From: Kofleriaceae bacterium
Lineage (GTDB): Bacteria > Myxococcota_A > Polyangia > Haliangiales > Haliangiaceae
Length of the DNA stretch: 64,000 bases
Assembly: GCA_024762925.1 (NCBI GenBank)
Contig: JANTGM010000008.1
Location: 1-64,000 of the forward strand
Reading direction: 5' to 3'
The position numbers were made by a program, and so were the translations under genes. How positions within the stretch are numbered: position 1 is the first letter of the stretch; each line of letters begins with the position of its first letter. Under the pieces are notes generated by a model that searched no databases, was not told where the DNA came from, and saw nothing but the letters and a program-made list of their open reading frames with translations. Positions 8,354 through 20,137 of the stretch are shown in pieces.

Positions 8354-8929
8354 CTAATTCGCGTCGCGGTCACGTTCCTTGCGGAGTTTGTCAGCGAAGG
8401 CAAGCATGACCTCTTGGAGGTGTTCCAGTGTGTCAAAGCGGCAACTGAGCGTGAAATAGTCGTTGCGACCAACGCTGCCCATGCGCTCCATGGCTTCCGT
8501 GAGCGCATCCATCAGCTTGGGTGGAGCCTGAAAGTCGCCATTGCCCTCACCCTCCTCGTCGAGAAGAATTGCCGATAGCGCCAATCGCACCGGTGAGAAC
8601 GAGAGCCCGCCCGGTAGGACAATGCGCCAATTGGCAGGATCCTCATCTTCGACTTTCCACTGACCACCAAGCGTCTGCCGTACCGCTTCGCCAAAATACG
8701 AGCCCGTCATGGCCGAGATGAGATTTGCCGCGTCAGTTTCCGTTCGCGGTACCTGCTTGATGTAGTGGTCGAGCAAGGGAAGGGTATGGCTGTCAAATTC
8801 AAGGCCCACCCCGACCGATGTTCGCACCGCATCAAGCGCACGTCGAACGAATTCGGCGGTGCGAGGAGGGCAACCTGGAAGCTCAATCGGTAGTTCAGAC
8901 ACAGCGTCGCGGATACTGCCTCCCGTCAT
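8354..8929 (-). CDS. Conserved hypothetical cytosolic protein
   Basis: About 191 residues from the ATG at 8929; an upstream start at 9112 would overlap the divergent CpXC gene and looks non-coding. The protein is acidic with no signal peptide or membrane segment. Segments such as TLPLLDHYIKQV, AMTGSYFGEAVRQTLGGQW and a later LSFSPVRLALSAILL look like a compact alpha/beta domain, but I cannot assign a family with confidence. The C-terminus (ERMGSVGRNDYFTLSCRFDTLEHLQEVMLAFADKL) is predicted helical. It is divergent from the CpXC/HEAT protein across about 80 bp, and the two may share regulation. Confidence 0.7.
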   Translation of the reverse strand: MTGGSIRDAVSELPIELPGCPPRTAEFVRRALDAVRTSVGVGLEFDSHTLPLLDHYIKQVPRTETDAANLISAMTGSYFGEAVRQTLGGQWKVEDEDPANWRIVLPGGLSFSPVRLALSAILLDEEGEGNGDFQAPPKLMDALTEAMERMGSVGRNDYFTLSCRFDTLEHLQEVMLAFADKLRKERDRDAN

Positions 8930-9009
8930 GGCCGATGTCCAGACTGGGATGGCCCGCCACCAGTTTTCCTTGTTCAATTGCGCCGCGCAAAATGGTACTA
9001 CGCGCCACC

Positions 9010-11766
9010 ATGACGGCTGGACGAGGCACGCGCACCGAGGAATCGAGCTACCGTGGAGTGCGCGCAGAGACAACCACGCAGCAGGTGCAGCATCGCTGTC
9101 GATGTGGGGCACTAACTCCTTGCAGTCTCGTGGTTAGCGTGGACGCCGAGGACAAGGATGTCGCTTGCCTTGCCACGGAGCAGGGGATTGAACGAGGCCT
9201 TCACAAGCTCGTCTGCGAATCCTGTGAAACCCCGCAGCTGGCATCGATTCCCTTCACGTACCACGACGGAAGCGAGCGGGTTTTCGTGCTTGTACTGCCT
9301 GAGAGCAGCCGAAGCCGGGAGCTTGAAGAGCGCGCTGACTTGCTTCGTTCGCTTGCGCAGGAAGCTGCCTTCATCCCCAACTATGTTGTCGAGCCTGTCG
9401 TGGTCTACGGGAGCGAGGGCCTCTCCGAGTTTCTGGTCGCACGGTTGCGCGAACGCGACGAACACAATCGTGACAGTCGCCGACTTCGCGAGGTGGAGAA
9501 GCGCATTGAAGAGGCGGTAAAACGCGAAGAGCGAATTGTGGAGCGAGAGCGAGAGCTCTCAGCTCTCACCGAAGATTTGGATGGCCGCTCAAGTGTGCTC
9601 ACCGAGAAAGAACTCGGTCTGCGAGACCGAAAAGGTGCTCTCGACCGGCGTTCGCAGGAACTTGAGCGCATGACCGTTGCGATTGAGGAGGTCAAGCAAC
9701 AGCTCCGCGCCGAGAGCCAGGGAGACTTGCCAGCGGTCCTGCGAGAAGACGCCACTGAGGCGCTCGGTATGGATGACATTCTCACGTCCGCTCCAAGTCC
9801 CGAGCGAGATGCACCTGTGCCTTCTGTGACTGTTGCATCCGGATCCGCTGAGACCAATACTCGAGTCTCTGCCACCGAAGATCCGCTGGGGCTCGACGAT
9901 TCAATCGATGAGGCGCCGATCTTGCTGACGGCCGAGACCCGGGTAGCGCCGGCCGAGTCTGTGGCGCGGGCCGCCTCGGAAATGATCACAGGGGAGCAGA
10001 GGAAGGTCTCCAGTCCCGGAGAAACCGTGCCCGATCTATCCGCAGCGCCAGTAAGTGCCCAGGCTGTCGAGAGCCCTCCGCAACACCTCGCACCGCAGAC
10101 CGAGGTTGGCGATCAAGAGATTACGGTCCCCACGACAACAGGCAGTGAAGTGGAAACCTGGCGACGCAATCGCGGCTCTCACCTTAAGGTCCTGCATGCC
10201 CACGAGGTGAGTCTCGTTGCCAGCATTCGCCAAAGTGCGTTAGAAGAACTCTTAGCATCGGACATTCGAGCACTCCTGCAACTGCATCGCATGCCCTCGT
10301 ATCCCCTCATTAGCCTAACGCTGGCCCGGGCAACGACGCTGGCAGGGAAGCCGGGCAAGCCGTACTCCTTCCACTTTGACGTTGGAAATGCGGAGGATCG
10401 AGCGGTTCTCAGTCAGCTGTCCGATTCGTTCCGGTTTCGGCTCGAGATTTTCGACGAGAATCACAACCCTGTGCGCCAACGACGGCTTGCAGCTCCACTG
10501 GCTTCGAACGTGAATTATGTGGTGGCTCTGGCAACCGACGCTCGCAAGGAGCTTCCGCCACATCAGCGCGACTTCGCTCAGGCGGTCAAGGCGTTTGACA
10601 ACAAGCGCTATGACAGGCTTGGCCGTGGGCATCGCCTCGCTCGCGACTTCAAGGACTCGCTGCTCGATCGGCTGGAGAGCCCCGCTTCATTGCTCGGTGC
10701 GATTGCCCAATGTGGGCGCTTCAGTGCGTCACCGGGTGAGGAGTACCTGGTGGCAATTCGCAGCTATCCGTTTGAGCGCTGGCACCGGCGTCGCCTGCAG
10801 GTCATCAAGAAAGCCATCGAGTATGGTCTCTGGATGGGGTCGGACCTTGCCATGGTGGCCGTATCAGAAGAACTCGTACGGTCCCGCCGTGAATTACTCG
10901 GTCTTTGCCAGACAAACTTCAAGGCTCTTGTTGAAGGCGAGGAGTCGGGGCTCAGCGAAAGCAGCATTCAAGTGAATTGGGCAGCGCTGGCAGCAGAAGC
11001 CGACGCCCTAGGCGTCTCGGTTGCGAAGGCTCGCCGTGCACCGTCCCCTGTAAAAATTGGCGATGAAGAGCAGCGCTTGCTGGCACAGCTGGAAGAGCCC
11101 AGTGCCCGTTTGCAAGCGATCGTCAGCCTGTGTGAGATGAAGAGTCTCACCGGAATGGACCCCCTGTTTCGCGCACTTGCCCAGTTGGATTCGCGGCAGG
11201 CTGCGGAGGCGTTTGCGTCCATTACGAAACTCGGCAACCAAGCATCGGAATCGCTTCTCGTTCTGCTCAGTTGCCCTTCGGGTCATCTCCGACATGGCGC
11301 AGCGCTGGCCCTGTGCGCACTCGGCAACGAGGAGGGCATCGACTCGACCTGCGAAAACCTAATCGCTAGCGAGGGGACCATCTGGCGCGAGTACGCTGTT
11401 GCGTTGGGCCACGTTGGGTCGTCAGCTGTCATGCCACTTGTGGCCCGCATTGCCGGCAGCGGGCAGCGGGGCCAAGCACGCGCAGTTTGGGCTCTGGGGT
11501 ACATTGCACTTGGTGGTGCCAGCAAGCCTGTTGAGACGCTCGCTAAAGGCCGCGATCAAGCCGTCTCACATGTGGCGCGCTCAGCACTGGAGCTCCGCCA
11601 GCGGCTGCAAGACCAGACCATTGGTTCGGAGCGCAGTGCAGTTGAACAAGAATTCACGGATGCGTTCTTCGCAGCGCTTGGCGGTCAGAATCCGGGGTAT
11701 GCAAGCGCCGATCTCTCAGGCCCCGCTATGCTTCTCGATGAGGCAGACCTTATCGAAGCCACCTAA
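9010..11766 (+). CDS. CpXC-domain, coiled-coil and HEAT-repeat protein
   Basis: About 918 residues from the ATG at 9010 (ATG at 8992 also possible). The first 115 residues hold Cys-rich pairs (CRCG, then VCESCETPQLASIPF and FVLVLPES) matching a CpXC zinc-ribbon-like domain. Residues about 145-240 are a highly charged coiled coil. An acidic, low-complexity linker follows to about 380. A middle domain contains HFDVGNAEDRAVL and a basic RHRRRLQVIKKAIEYG segment. The C-terminal 250 residues contain repeated ALxxLGxxxA-type helices consistent with HEAT/armadillo repeats. No signal peptide is seen, so it is probably a cytosolic scaffold. The function is unknown. Confidence 0.82.
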   Translation: MTAGRGTRTEESSYRGVRAETTTQQVQHRCRCGALTPCSLVVSVDAEDKDVACLATEQGIERGLHKLVCESCETPQLASIPFTYHDGSERVFVLVLPESSRSRELEERADLLRSLAQEAAFIPNYVVEPVVVYGSEGLSEFLVARLRERDEHNRDSRRLREVEKRIEEAVKREERIVERERELSALTEDLDGRSSVLTEKELGLRDRKGALDRRSQELERMTVAIEEVKQQLRAESQGDLPAVLREDATEALGMDDILTSAPSPERDAPVPSVTVASGSAETNTRVSATEDPLGLDDSIDEAPILLTAETRVAPAESVARAASEMITGEQRKVSSPGETVPDLSAAPVSAQAVESPPQHLAPQTEVGDQEITVPTTTGSEVETWRRNRGSHLKVLHAHEVSLVASIRQSALEELLASDIRALLQLHRMPSYPLISLTLARATTLAGKPGKPYSFHFDVGNAEDRAVLSQLSDSFRFRLEIFDENHNPVRQRRLAAPLASNVNYVVALATDARKELPPHQRDFAQAVKAFDNKRYDRLGRGHRLARDFKDSLLDRLESPASLLGAIAQCGRFSASPGEEYLVAIRSYPFERWHRRRLQVIKKAIEYGLWMGSDLAMVAVSEELVRSRRELLGLCQTNFKALVEGEESGLSESSIQVNWAALAAEADALGVSVAKARRAPSPVKIGDEEQRLLAQLEEPSARLQAIVSLCEMKSLTGMDPLFRALAQLDSRQAAEAFASITKLGNQASESLLVLLSCPSGHLRHGAALALCALGNEEGIDSTCENLIASEGTIWREYAVALGHVGSSAVMPLVARIAGSGQRGQARAVWALGYIALGGASKPVETLAKGRDQAVSHVARSALELRQRLQDQTIGSERSAVEQEFTDAFFAALGGQNPGYASADLSGPAMLLDEADLIEAT

Positions 11767-14918: not shown

Positions 14919-15923
14919 TTAATGCCTTGCAAGCTCTCCACAGTCACGACGCTCATCGCCAGGATACGGCCGGTGGCGCAGTCGGCGGTCGCGGTCCCCT
15001 CGCTCGACAGTGGCGAGCCGTGCACCACCCAAAATCGCTTCAACGAGGTCCGCAAAGGGCAGGCCTGCAGCGTGGGCGATTTTTGGAAGCAAGCTATTGG
15101 GTGTGAGGCCGGGAAGTGCGTTCACTTCGAGCACAAACTCGTTGCCTGTCGGGCTCAGAATCAAGTCGACACGTGTGGCGCCTGCGCACCCCAGGGCGCG
15201 ATGGGCGATTTCTGCCTGGGCCAAGATGCCTCGGTATCGCTGTGGGCTTACTCGCGGAGGAATGAAGTAGCGGTTTGCGGATGCGTCGTACTTGGCGGCG
15301 AAGTCGTAGAGTGGGCGGTCCGATTCGATTTCGATCGCACCAAGTGCGCGATCCTCAACCACGGCAACCGAAATCTCTTGGCCCCGAATCCACTGTTCAA
15401 CGATGACCTGGCTGTCGTACTGAAGCGCTCGCTCGCAGGCCGCTCGGAGTTGCTCGGTCGAGTCCACAAGCTGGACGCCTACCGAAGAGCCCTCGGCAAT
15501 GGGCTTCACAACAACCGGGAACCCAAGGTCGCCATGATGTCGTTCTACGTCCGCAATCTCGTCCTCGTGAAGGAGGTAGTAACTGGGAGTGGGAAGATTG
15601 TGGAGGCGAAAGAGTTCCTTGCTCTTCGCCTTGTTCATCGAAAGCGCCGCTGCGAGCACGTCACTTCCCGTGTACGGAATTCCCATCAGTTCCAGCATGC
15701 CCTGGATGCAGCCGTCTTCGCCGTAGCGACCATGAAGCGCGAGGAAAGCAATGTCGATTTCCTTCTGGCGAAGGACGAGGTCCAGATCCCGATCAACAAA
15801 GATCCCGGTTGCGTCATACCCACGGTCAACAAGGGCGGCCAAGATCGCCTGCCCACTGGCAATTGAGACACTCTTCTCGCTGCTAAGGCCCCCCATCAAT
15901 ACGCCAATTTTGCGATTTCGCAT
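14919..15923 (-). CDS. ddl: D-alanine--D-alanine ligase
   Basis: A 334-residue ATP-grasp enzyme that joins two D-Ala residues for peptidoglycan precursor synthesis. Visible elements are VLMGGLSSEKSVS, LHGRYGEDGCIQGMLE, IPYTGSDVLA, VVVKPIAEGSSVGV and the metal site FVLEVNALPGLTPNSLLPK. The C-terminal 30 or so residues (ARLATVERGDRDRRLRHR and on) are an Arg-rich extension beyond the normal Ddl end. The next gene on the same strand is the AsmA/GT51 transglycosylase, four to sixteen bases on depending on its start. The gene diverges from the HARE-HTH protein across about 218 bp. Confidence 0.96.
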   Translation of the reverse strand: MRNRKIGVLMGGLSSEKSVSIASGQAILAALVDRGYDATGIFVDRDLDLVLRQKEIDIAFLALHGRYGEDGCIQGMLELMGIPYTGSDVLAAALSMNKAKSKELFRLHNLPTPSYYLLHEDEIADVERHHGDLGFPVVVKPIAEGSSVGVQLVDSTEQLRAACERALQYDSQVIVEQWIRGQEISVAVVEDRALGAIEIESDRPLYDFAAKYDASANRYFIPPRVSPQRYRGILAQAEIAHRALGCAGATRVDLILSPTGNEFVLEVNALPGLTPNSLLPKIAHAAGLPFADLVEAILGGARLATVERGDRDRRLRHRPYPGDERRDCGELARH

Positions 15924-16141: not shown

Positions 16142-17971
16142 ATGAATTTTGTAGACACGGCGATCACCTTGCTCCACGAATCTGGCAGGCCGATGGCAGT
16201 CCAAGAGTTGTGCGACCTCGCGCTCGATCGGGGGTTGCTCGACAAGCCTGGAGCCAATCCGCTGCGAAGCATGAAGACTCGTCTGACGGTCGAGTTTAAC
16301 AAGGGCAAGGCAAGCCGCTTGCTGCGCGATGGTGATGAGGCGTGGACACTGAGCAAAGGTGTAGCGCTTCCTGAAGGTGCACCTGCGAGTGCAAAGACGA
16401 AGGCTGCGGCGTCAAAGACCAAGAAAGCAACCGCCAAAGCCAAACCGGCAGCGAAGGCGAAGGCAACTACAAAGACCAAAGCTGCGACGAAGACCAAAGC
16501 TGCGACAAAGACCAAAGCTGCGACAAAGACCAAAGCTGCGACAAAGACCAAAGCTGCGACGAAGCCAAAGGCAAAGCCCGCTGCCAACCGTAAGAAGACT
16601 ACGGCAGAGGCGAAAGCGGCTGAGGCAAAGCCGAAGAAGGCAGCTGCGAAGGCAAAAGCCAAGACGAGCAAAGCGAAGTCTGCCACGACGGAAGCTGAGG
16701 AGACGACTTTGGCCAAGACGAAGGCCGCAAAGGGTACCCCGTCCACGAAAGCGAAGGACTCCGAAGAAGCCGCACCAATAAGGAAAACTCGCAGAACCCG
16801 CGCCTCGGCCAAGTCTAAGAAACCCTCTGAGGAAGATGCTGCGCCAGTGGCTGAGGAAGCGGTGGCTGCCGAGCCGCCCGTCAAGCTCACTGCTGAGGAA
16901 GAGGCGCTGGTAGAACTCTATGGAACCCCTGAAGGCACACATTCCGCCGCTGAACTCAATGAGTATCGGGACGAGCTCACAAAAGACGAAGATCGTCCCA
17001 TGCTGCCCGAAATTCGCGCAGAGCGTCGCCCGCACCGAGGTCGCGAACGAACCCGCAAGCGGCGAAGTCGCAGCGAACGTCCAGAGCGCAGCGAGCGCTC
17101 GGAGCGACCTAGCCGAAGCCGGAGCGAGACGGCTCGCAAGCGCTCGCGCTCTTCGGCACCTCGCGACATCGCTGGGGCACTCATCACCCTCGTGGATGCG
17201 GATGCAAGCCCTCGCGAGCAGCTCACAGCCGCAGCCTATGCCGTTTTGGGAACGCTTCCCACGGGCCAGAGCATGCCCGTGCGACAGCTAACCCAGACAC
17301 TGATTCGTCAGGGCCAACTTGAGGGGCGTGCGGACAGCCTGTGGCGAATGGTCAAGGGAACGCTCCTCGTCTCCGAGCAGCGACGCAGCACCCGCGGCCT
17401 ACCTCCTCTGGTTCGATATCGTGGCAAGGATCTGTTTTCTGCTGACTTCGTCCCCGGGCGCTCGGCCGTTGATATTGCCGAAGCTGCACTTGCCAAAGCC
17501 GCGGAGAACTACGCCGCTGCCGTTGAGAAGGAAATGCAAACCCGGCTTGCTCAGCTCGCGCCGCAAATGCTCGAGCGCATTGCCTACGTCTATCTTCAAG
17601 CAACGGGCTGGAAGGATATCTCCTGGATCAAGCGGGTTGAGAAGAGTTCTTATGCCCTCGCAACTGCCCCGGGAGCTGTGGACCAGACAATGGTCGCGGT
17701 TCGCGGCGGTCCTGAGGAAATTGATCGACGTGGCGTTGGCGAACTTCGAGCGGGTCTCTATGCAAAAGACCTGGACTCAGGGCTGTTGCTTACGCCCTGC
17801 GATCTATCTCAAGAGGCAAATGTGGAGCTGGCCAAGGAAGGTGCGCACGTCCGGATCGTGGCTGGCGCCGATTTTATCGGCGAACTCGTAGCTCGCGAAG
17901 TCGGCGTGTCCTGGCGGCATCAACAGCTGCCACGAATTGATCAGCGATTCTGGGATGCTCTTCTGAGCTAG
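16142..17971 (+). CDS. HARE-HTH / histone H1-like / Mrr-like chromatin-type protein
   Basis: About 609 residues from the ATG at 16142; TAGGG lies 9 bases upstream. Residues 1-75 resemble a HARE-HTH winged helix (FVDTAITLLHESGRPMAVQE, then MKTRLTVEFNKG). Residues about 80-245 are Lys/Ala/Thr-rich like a histone H1 tail, including five TKTKAA repeats. Then come an acidic patch, an Arg/Ser/Glu-rich basic stretch, and a second HARE-like segment (about 345-435). The last 130 residues resemble an Mrr-type nuclease fold (LAQLAPQMLERIAYVYLQATGW), but the expected D and Q/E-x-K residues are replaced (VDQTMVAVRGG), so cleavage is unlikely. lipB starts 4 bases after the stop. A DNA-compacting or modified-DNA-reading role is inferred. 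Confidence 0.82.
   Translation: MNFVDTAITLLHESGRPMAVQELCDLALDRGLLDKPGANPLRSMKTRLTVEFNKGKASRLLRDGDEAWTLSKGVALPEGAPASAKTKAAASKTKKATAKAKPAAKAKATTKTKAATKTKAATKTKAATKTKAATKTKAATKPKAKPAANRKKTTAEAKAAEAKPKKAAAKAKAKTSKAKSATTEAEETTLAKTKAAKGTPSTKAKDSEEAAPIRKTRRTRASAKSKKPSEEDAAPVAEEAVAAEPPVKLTAEEEALVELYGTPEGTHSAAELNEYRDELTKDEDRPMLPEIRAERRPHRGRERTRKRRSRSERPERSERSERPSRSRSETARKRSRSSAPRDIAGALITLVDADASPREQLTAAAYAVLGTLPTGQSMPVRQLTQTLIRQGQLEGRADSLWRMVKGTLLVSEQRRSTRGLPPLVRYRGKDLFSADFVPGRSAVDIAEAALAKAAENYAAAVEKEMQTRLAQLAPQMLERIAYVYLQATGWKDISWIKRVEKSSYALATAPGAVDQTMVAVRGGPEEIDRRGVGELRAGLYAKDLDSGLLLTPCDLSQEANVELAKEGAHVRIVAGADFIGELVAREVGVSWRHQQLPRIDQRFWDALLS
16469..16558. repeat. Five 18-bp coding tandem repeats (TKTKAA)
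   Basis: Five near-identical 18-bp units beginning ACAAAGACCAAAGCTGCG encode Thr-Lys-Thr-Lys-Ala-Ala in the H1-like tail. Differences are confined to synonymous third positions (aca/acg), which suggests recent slippage expansion and possible copy-number variation. Confidence 0.95.
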
Positions 17972-17975
17972 CGCG

Positions 17976-18635
17976 ATGGCCTGGTACGGGCGGCAGCCGT
18001 ATCCGCAGACGCTTGGCGAAATGCAGCGTCTGCGGGATTGCATGATTGCGGCACCAGAGCGGTCTGGTTGTCTGATCCTCTGCGAGCACCCACCAACGAT
18101 CACCTGTGGCAAGCACAGCAAGCCAGAGAATGTCTTGTTATCGAGCGCTGAACTTGAGAGTCGTGGCATCGCGGTCGAACCCGTCGATCGCGGTGGGGAC
18201 GTGACGTATCACGGGCCCGGGCAGCTGATGATCTACCCGGTTGTCCGCGTCGGCATACGCGTGAGTGCGTTTTTGGAATGCATTGCCGACGCCCTCTCGC
18301 TTCTTGCCTTGGAGTTTGGCGTCACAGGCGCCCGGTGGCAAAGCGACGAAGCGGGGCTTTGGCTCGAGCACCGAAAGCTGGCAGCCTGTGGACTCAATCT
18401 TCGCCGAGGTGTGAGCATTCACGGCTATTCCTTCAATGTGCGGACGCCACCTGGCGACTGGCGATGCATTGTTCCTTGTGGGCTCGCGGGACCTGGCCCA
18501 ATTTCGCTGCTCGAGGCGCTGGGCGGTGAGGACGGACCAAGCATCGAGGAGTGTGCAAGGGCAGCGCTGCCGCTTCTGCATCGAGCCCTGGCCCCCTACG
18601 GACTGGACCCGAACGCAAGGGCCGAGCTAGGCTGA
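17976..18635 (+). CDS. lipB: Octanoyl-[acyl carrier protein]:protein N-octanoyltransferase
   Basis: A 219-residue LipB, the usual length. It transfers octanoate from ACP to lipoyl domains of 2-oxoacid dehydrogenases and GcvH, the first step of lipoate assembly. Diagnostic elements are the signature RGGDVTYHGPGQLMIYP, the catalytic Lys region HRKLAACGLNLRRGVS with IHGYSFNV, and the catalytic Cys in IVPCGLAGPGPISL. No lipA is in the window. It sits 4 bases after the HARE protein and 4 bases before the ATP-grasp gene, inside a five-gene run. Confidence 0.96.
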   Translation: MAWYGRQPYPQTLGEMQRLRDCMIAAPERSGCLILCEHPPTITCGKHSKPENVLLSSAELESRGIAVEPVDRGGDVTYHGPGQLMIYPVVRVGIRVSAFLECIADALSLLALEFGVTGARWQSDEAGLWLEHRKLAACGLNLRRGVSIHGYSFNVRTPPGDWRCIVPCGLAGPGPISLLEALGGEDGPSIEECARAALPLLHRALAPYGLDPNARAELG

Positions 18636-18639
18636 AGTC

Positions 18640-19686
18640 TTGAAGCGCGTACGACTGATATACAATACCGACTACGATGAAGAACTGATTGCGAGCTCTG
18701 GCGTCGACGTTAGCGCGGTGGAAGAAGCTGCCCGCGCAGTTTGCAAAGGGATTTCTGATTTTGGTTTGCAAACCGAAATCATCGGAATTCACGGTAGGGA
18801 TATTTCTGAGGTTCTAACGACTTTGCAAGACGGCAAGGCCGACTTGGTGTTTAACATCGTCGAGTCACTGTGTGGCGATACTCGGAACGAGTTGGTGATG
18901 CCGGCTCTCTTGGAACTTTTAGGAGTCCCCTATACCGGGCCCGACGCGCTCGCAATCGGACTCTGCCTGCACAAGGTGAAGTGCAAGCACGTGCTGACAG
19001 GATGCGATATCCCGACGCCTGCACACCTGCTCTTGTCTTCGCCTAGCGAAGTGATCAGCGGAGCGCTCGATAGCAAGATGGAGAGCCTGGCCTATCCATT
19101 CTTTCTAAAGCTTGCACGCGAGGATGCCTCGATTGGCATTGAGGCGAGCAATCTGGTCTCCAGCCCTTCGGAGCTCAAGAAACGCGGGCTAGAGCTTCTC
19201 GAGCAGTACGGCCAACCCGTGCTTTGCGAGCGCTACATTGAGGGGCGGGAGGTTAACGTGACGGTTCTCGGCAATGGTGCAGACCTCGCGGTCCTGCCGC
19301 TCTACGAGATTGACTTTGGCGAGATGCCCGAAGGACGTCCTCACATCATTTCCTACGCTGCAAAGTGGGACGAAGAACATGTGGACTACGGCGGCACAAA
19401 GCCTGTGCCCATGCGCGATGTCTCGCCCAAGTTGGCAGCAACGATTGCCGATACGGCAAAGCGGTCTTTCAGCGCCTTGGGCTTGCGGGATTTTGGTCGC
19501 GTCGATCTTCGAATCGACAGGGAAGGAACGCCCTGGGTCATCGACGTCAATCCGAATTGTGATCTGTCGCCAGGCGCTGGCGTTGCGAATGCCGCGGCCA
19601 TGGCGGGAATGGACTACCCACAGCTTGTCGGCCGGATTTGTGAGCTGGCATGGAGTCGCCATGAGCGTAGCGCTGCGAAACCTTAA
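18640..19686 (+). CDS. ATP-grasp ligase, D-Ala--D-Ala ligase-like
   Basis: A 348-residue ATP-grasp protein distinct from ddl. Blocks seen: ADLVFNIVESLCGDTRNE, LLGVPYTGPDALAIGLCLHK, PFFLKLAREDASIGI, CERYIEGREVNVTVLG and the metal-binding WVIDVNPNCDLSPGAG. The DVNPNCDLSPGAG ending is characteristic of the Ddl-like ligases that occur with GNAT acetyltransferases, not of true Ddl (E-x-N-x-x-P-G-L). The start is TTG at 18640, four bases after lipB. It overlaps the GNAT gene by 26 bp. The likely product is an amino acid or peptide ligation, with the substrate unknown. Confidence 0.88.
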   Translation: MKRVRLIYNTDYDEELIASSGVDVSAVEEAARAVCKGISDFGLQTEIIGIHGRDISEVLTTLQDGKADLVFNIVESLCGDTRNELVMPALLELLGVPYTGPDALAIGLCLHKVKCKHVLTGCDIPTPAHLLLSSPSEVISGALDSKMESLAYPFFLKLAREDASIGIEASNLVSSPSELKKRGLELLEQYGQPVLCERYIEGREVNVTVLGNGADLAVLPLYEIDFGEMPEGRPHIISYAAKWDEEHVDYGGTKPVPMRDVSPKLAATIADTAKRSFSALGLRDFGRVDLRIDREGTPWVIDVNPNCDLSPGAGVANAAAMAGMDYPQLVGRICELAWSRHERSAAKP

Positions 19687-20137
19687 GCCTTCCGACCGTC
19701 CGATTCTCGAGGGCATCCTTCGTTCGGACGACACCTTTCGCGACGACGAGGTTGCTGTGGCTCTTGAGCTTGTTGACGACGCTCTAGCGAATCCAGATTC
19801 GGACTACTGGTTTCGCCTCGCAGAGCGAGAAGGGCAGGCTGCGGGCTACCTCTGCTTTGGACCCACGCCGATGACGGCATGCACCTACGATTTGTATTGG
19901 ATTGTGGTGCACGCGGAGCACAGGGGCCATGGCATTGCCCGATCGCTCATCGATGAGATGGAACGGGCGCTGCTCGCGCGGGGCCCAAAGGCGCAAATTC
20001 GCGTTGAGACATCTCAGAGCGAGGGCTACGGCGCGGCACGAAAGCTCTACGAGGCCCTCGGCTATCCAGAGACGGCGCGCTTCTCGGACTTCTATGGCGC
20101 CGGCGATGACTTGATTGTGTTCTACAAGAACCTATGA
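19661..20137 (+). CDS. GNAT-family N-acetyltransferase
   Basis: A 158-residue GNAT protein. The acetyl-CoA loop is in WIVVHAEHRGHGIARSLI (R-G-x-G-I), followed by the RVETSQSEGYGAARKLYEALGY element with the conserved Tyr. It starts at the ATG at 19661 inside the end of the ATP-grasp gene, and its stop overlaps the start of the next lipoprotein (ATGA). The tight coupling with the ATP-grasp ligase suggests both act on one small molecule or peptide; the substrate is unknown. Confidence 0.9.
   Translation: MSVALRNLKPSDRPILEGILRSDDTFRDDEVAVALELVDDALANPDSDYWFRLAEREGQAAGYLCFGPTPMTACTYDLYWIVVHAEHRGHGIARSLIDEMERALLARGPKAQIRVETSQSEGYGAARKLYEALGYPETARFSDFYGAGDDLIVFYKNL

Follow-up and report, generated by a model that had tools for sequence, protein, structure and literature searches.

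A vertically inherited HARE–Mrr protein of Myxococcota, probably a restriction enzyme converted to a chromosome or transcription role

We examined a 64,000-nucleotide stretch of contig JANTGM010000008.1 from a Kofleriaceae bacterium (Myxococcota; GenBank assembly GCA_024762925.1), hereafter the window, and within it a 609-amino-acid open reading frame (ORF) at positions 16142 to 17971 of the forward strand, beginning with the ATG at 16142. The ORF and its orthologues give a layout of a HARE domain, a charged linker, a second HARE-like domain, a helix, and an Mrr-type nuclease fold without catalytic residues (pseudo-Mrr). The gene is vertically inherited and core in its class, and its product looks like a former restriction enzyme that has become a standard chromosome or transcription protein. 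We consider it somewhat better than even (probability about 0.55) that the protein is a non-cutting, multivalent DNA-binding protein of the chromosome, either nucleoid associated or broadly transcription associated.

Domains and loss of the catalytic residues

The N-terminal winged helix (HARE1, residues 1 to 70; positions 16142 to 16351, forward strand) belongs to the HARE-HTH family by the curated Pfam cut-off (PF05066, E = 5.8e-9, 36.7 bits against a cut-off of 25.9); the match recurs in a genome-wide scan (E = 2.8e-8), and an alignment of 14 relatives supports the same domain. Pfam does not call the second copy, HARE2 (17210 to 17449, forward strand), in the window protein itself, but several comparisons point to a HARE domain in this central region: the N-terminal and central family profiles align to each other in hhalign (probability 80.7, E = 1.3e-5), the N-terminal HARE profile matches the central region of relatives (best E = 4e-7), the HARE part of the C-terminal profile matches the N-terminal HARE in the same proteins, and Pfam calls two HARE stretches in the orthologues L128 and L043. 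An AlphaFold model built from 22 sequences, with a mean predicted local distance difference test score (pLDDT) of 84.6, predicts HARE2 as a helix-strand-helix-helix-two-strand unit, and the structural matches over it include winged helices (CUL1 WHB, PadR, and LmrR). The initial annotation, made from the sequence alone, had two HARE-like winged helices flanking a Lys/Ala tail, and these results agree with it. The HARE domains are steadily basic, with a net charge of at least 0 in 46 of 46 HARE1 and 59 of 61 HARE2 domains among the relatives scored. The same genome also carries a stand-alone second HARE-HTH protein of 180 amino acids on contig 240 (L062:2362-2904), directly after a biotin-carboxylase-like ORF, and some Kofleriaceae (L040, L041, L057, and L064) start with a Lys/Ala-rich tail in the place of HARE1, which is not recognizable in them.

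In the model a long helix (17465 to 17551, forward strand; helix 101-129 in model numbering) connects HARE2 to a PD-(D/E)XK fold, the pseudo-Mrr domain (17558 to 17908, forward strand). Residues 470 to 579 match Mrr_cat (PF04471) with an E value of 1.1e-4 and 22.8 bits against a curated cut-off of 21, so that both the HARE-HTH and the Mrr profiles score over their curated cut-offs in the window protein. Fold comparison of the pseudo-Mrr domain gave AF1548 (Z = 12.1), AspBHI (Z = 12.0), and MspJI (Z = 11.1), and the top Foldseek match was MspJI (E = 1.2e-4); by the Pfam score together with the predicted fold, the domain is a member of Mrr_cat. No NCBIfam model matches the 609-amino-acid protein, a phmmer search of the PDB with the C-terminal region returned armadillo-repeat noise only, and the family profile reached AspBHI in the PDB at an E value of only 0.34, plus a noise match to a thermosome.

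Profile alignment with the paralogues L145 and L146, which keep an intact GGIDV...VQVKR motif, places a Tyr (17651 to 17653, forward strand) in the catalytic Asp column and A-V-R (17696 to 17704, forward strand) in the columns of Q/E-x-K. The window protein thus lacks the Asp and Q/E-x-K expected of an active Mrr-type endonuclease, as the initial annotation had it, and the loss runs through the family: in a motif alignment of 67 rows (5 intact paralogues of other architecture and 62 others), none of the 62 relatives retains these residues. Their Asp column holds Tyr, His, Phe, or another residue, with no conserved acidic substitute. An Arg at the position of the catalytic Lys is near-invariant in a diverse alignment (A1) and is kept across most of the class, and the invariant residues of the diverse set (G60, L126, G130, R177, E203, and D241) do not form the usual motif. 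Some orthologues (L135, L136, L150, L151, and L157, of families f16 and f17) carry a further C-terminal extension of about 90 to 220 amino acids beyond the pseudo-Mrr domain.

Inheritance, intact paralogues and gene neighborhood

A single-query search of 56 related genomes gave relatives in 40, and a profile search matched 66 of 144 genomes of the phylum; among the results listed, all 29 genomes of the same class match and every non-matching genome lies outside the class, and relatives also occur elsewhere in the phylum. The nearest named contigs are Kofleriaceae metagenome-assembled genomes (72 and 67% identity). The tree of the 67 rows follows taxonomy: its 23 taxonomic groups are accounted for by 22 label changes, as few as there can be, against 50.2 in shuffles. 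No relatives were recovered from the plasmids, phages, and viral contigs searched.

The neighboring genes are of a housekeeping kind. A lipB gene (17976 to 18635, forward strand; Pfam LplA-B_cat, TIGR00214, and synteny) lies directly downstream, and in 31 of 67 loci, among them all 7 of family f25, lipB was identified close by, usually as the next gene downstream and in the same orientation. The divergent neighbor is ddl, encoding a D-Ala-D-Ala ligase (14919 to 15923, reverse strand; annotation and synteny), which recurs in the class and was detected in 25 of 67 loci, in many of these as the divergent neighbor; a phosphoesterase gene farther upstream recurs in 13 loci. Given the vertical tree, the lipB and ddl neighbors, and the lack of relatives on the mobile elements searched, the locus is not a defense island and does not show the sporadic, defense-type setting of type IV restriction. 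Vertical inheritance, a conserved place, and the absence of mobile copies therefore argue for a domesticated pseudo-nuclease and not for a defense gene.

Five paralogues (L145, L146, L153, L154, and L155) have an intact motif, with Q-x-K and an Asp at the catalytic column or, in L154 and L155, beside it in the alignment, and they form one supported clade in the tree (99/96). Two of them, L145 and L146, have the architecture Mrr_N-HARE-HARE-Mrr_cat, match PADLOC type IV restriction models, and are likely type IV restriction enzymes. Their genes (L145:5276-6844 and L146:5916-7385) lie in two complete f25 genomes that also carry the dead orthologue. The pattern of intact and dead copies fits an origin of the family from a HARE-Mrr restriction enzyme; because the tree is rooted by midpoint only, we infer the order of events, with dead copies arising from active ones.

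Two further recurrences at the locus were observed. A large ORF at 8818 to 11766 (forward strand) resembles, by eye, proteins upstream of the phosphoesterase gene in the related loci L035, L037, and L064. At 18640 to 20137 (forward strand), a second D-Ala-D-Ala-ligase-like ATP-grasp protein is followed by a GNAT acetyltransferase, an arrangement that recurs after lipB in several relatives.

Linker, proposed function and alternatives

The linker that separates the two HARE domains begins with a Lys/Ala-rich disordered stretch (16352 to 16891, forward strand), whose composition varies strongly across relatives, as the sequences and a charge table indicate. In the window protein the linker has a net charge of +36 and is 16% Lys, and in relatives its charge reaches −38 (L133), −37 (L147), and +37 (L131). 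At 16469 to 16570 (forward strand), Tandem Repeats Finder detects 5.7 tandem copies of an 18-bp sequence that encodes KTKAAT, which suggests a recent, lineage-specific expansion of the tail. The initial annotation had called this tail histone H1-like. The Lys/Ala-rich composition and the repeat are real, but the window protein matches no histone H1, Hc1, or Hc2 profile in Pfam at E values up to 10, so the likeness is compositional only, and since neither charge nor composition is conserved, it is a property of this lineage and not a defining part of the family.

Farther along, a conserved motif, ELYG...EYRDELTxDEDRPMLPEI (16892 to 17026, forward strand), is clear only in Kofleriaceae (family f1) and near relatives within its order (alignment A5). 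It is predicted with low confidence (pLDDT about 45 to 70), for which reason we rejected the DEDRPMLPEI segment as a folded domain and treat it as a peptide motif, a candidate for binding. An Arg/Ser-rich disordered stretch follows (17027 to 17164, forward strand; pLDDT below 50 across most of it). The adjacent GNAT was considered as a modifier of the tail, an idea that we dropped because the GNAT was detected at just 11 of the 67 loci and because the richness of the tail in Lys is itself lineage specific.

In the function that we favor, this vertically inherited protein would be a DNA-binding housekeeping factor of Myxococcota whose ancestor was a HARE-Mrr (type IV-like) restriction enzyme that lost its active site. 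Its two HARE winged helices, both basic, would act together with the charged disordered linker and the dead Mrr domain to bind the chromosome without cleaving its DNA, with the Mrr part serving as a DNA-clamping or dimerizing module, in the role of a nucleoid-associated or broad transcription-associated factor. Three observations weigh against this proposal: the pseudo-Mrr domain is itself slightly acidic (median charge −2); many relatives have an acidic linker, a poor fit to a histone-like compactor as the common function of the family; and several Kofleriaceae have no HARE1 or an eroded one. Of the bacterial chromatin reader or compactor suggested by the initial annotation, a chromosomal DNA-binding role stands as a natural reading of the HARE domains, the Mrr fold, and the catalytic loss, and the H1-like tail falls away as a defining part, given a linker charge of +36 here and down to −38 in relatives.

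The main rival, which we regard as possible though clearly the weaker reading, is a partner of RNA polymerase. As an accessory factor, the protein would dock through one HARE domain as the N-terminal domain of the delta subunit does, its disordered linker would reach either into the main channel or away from it, and the dead nuclease would sit on downstream DNA like the Rpb5 jaw of eukaryotic polymerases. The N-terminal domain of delta is a HARE relative. Delta itself combines a folded N-terminal domain with a disordered tail sited at the jaw of the polymerase (PMC7749165). Fold comparison of the pseudo-Mrr domain repeatedly returned Rpb5 chains (Z = 7 to 8.8), disordered linkers ranging in charge from −38 to +37 would suit such a factor, and so would a core, vertical gene. 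Yet the likenesses to delta and to Rpb5 are both analogies, Rpb5 ranks clearly below AF1548, AspBHI, and MspJI, a Z score near 8 may reflect no more than the shared PD-(D/E)XK arrangement, as the aligner cautions for that range, a search of the HARE1 profile against the PDB recovered no delta chain at E values up to 10, and no polymerase gene was identified among the recurrent neighbors. In its fullest form, an ancient, phylum-specific polymerase partner with delta-like HARE domains and a dead nuclease that grips downstream DNA like the Rpb5 jaw, the idea would mean that bacteria had convergently recruited a dead PD-(D/E)XK fold for transcription; this more elaborate version we think distinctly unlikely.

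About equally doubtful is a reader of modified DNA, in which the HARE domains would recognize a methylated or otherwise modified base, the dead Mrr domain would add affinity, and the protein would mark self DNA or direct other factors. MspJI and AspBHI, the nearest solved relatives, are modification-dependent enzymes, and a role of HARE domains in reading modified bases has been proposed (a proposal cited in PMC11037411 and PMC10853773). Set against this, 13 of 22 carriers, including the genome of the window, have no detectable 5-methylcytosine (5mC) methylase, which makes 5mC reading unlikely as the common function of the family and leaves the initial annotation's suggestion that modified DNA is read unsupported; no methylase was identified among the recurrent neighbors, and one carrier (G050) lacks both methylase families searched. 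Of the 13 carriers with no detectable 5mC methylase, 12 have N6/N4 methylases, so an adenine or N4 mark may yet be what such a reader recognizes. Two other explanations we hold to be very improbable. A nuclease still active through a relocated or unusual site could appeal to the Mrr_cat score, to the Arg that most of the class retains in place of the Lys, and to the migration of active sites that occurs in the PD-(D/E)XK fold, but nothing acidic is conserved in place of the Asp (Tyr, His, Phe, or other), the invariant residues do not assemble the usual motif, and class-wide presence without a partner methylase would be odd for a DNA cutter. A defense component, such as a decoy or a dominant-negative restriction subunit, draws on a weak PADLOC match to PDC-S02 (E = 3.1e-6, Mrr part only) and on paralogues that appear to be true type IV-like enzymes, and is opposed by the housekeeping neighbors, vertical inheritance, and lack of mobile-element copies.

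Relation to known systems

The HARE-HTH and Mrr families are known, as are HARE-nuclease fusions that act as restriction enzymes. A class-wide, vertical, catalytically dead HARE-linker-HARE-Mrr protein is apparently undescribed in the literature on HARE-HTH with Mrr or myxobacteria that we covered, a search that most subscription papers lie outside. If the favored reading is true, the family would plainly exemplify the conversion of a restriction-type enzyme into a chromosomal protein that no longer cuts and is conserved across an entire bacterial class, and the intact paralogues in relatives allow comparison with the dead family. Myxococcota have large, complex genomes in which chromatin and the general transcription factors have been little studied, and this gene is a concrete candidate open to experiment.

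Myxobacterial CarD, described as a global DNA-binding regulator of the same phylum, is built from different domain families and serves as background only. The delta subunit of RNA polymerase (Firmicutes RpoE) resembles the window protein in its small folded N-terminal domain and long disordered charged tail, whereas the window protein adds HARE2 and the pseudo-Mrr domain, has a cationic linker, and gave no delta sequence match in the PDB search. The N-terminal jaw domain of Rpb5 is catalytically dead and has a PD-(D/E)XK-like fold in common with the pseudo-Mrr domain (Z = 7 to 8.8), but the latter is closer to the nucleases, and no Rpb5 C-terminal domain is seen in the window protein. MspJI and AspBHI share the C-terminal PD-(D/E)XK fold (Z = 11 to 12); their N-terminal part is SRA-like, whereas the window protein has an N-terminal HARE domain and has no catalytic residues left. 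The same two domain families (PF05066 and PF04471) make up the HARE-HTH restriction endonucleases and Mrr-type IV enzymes, from which the dead orthologues differ in lacking an active site and Mrr_N and in having their HARE domains separated by a long disordered linker; and while type IV enzymes are sporadic defense genes, the gene described here is a core, vertically inherited one beside lipB.
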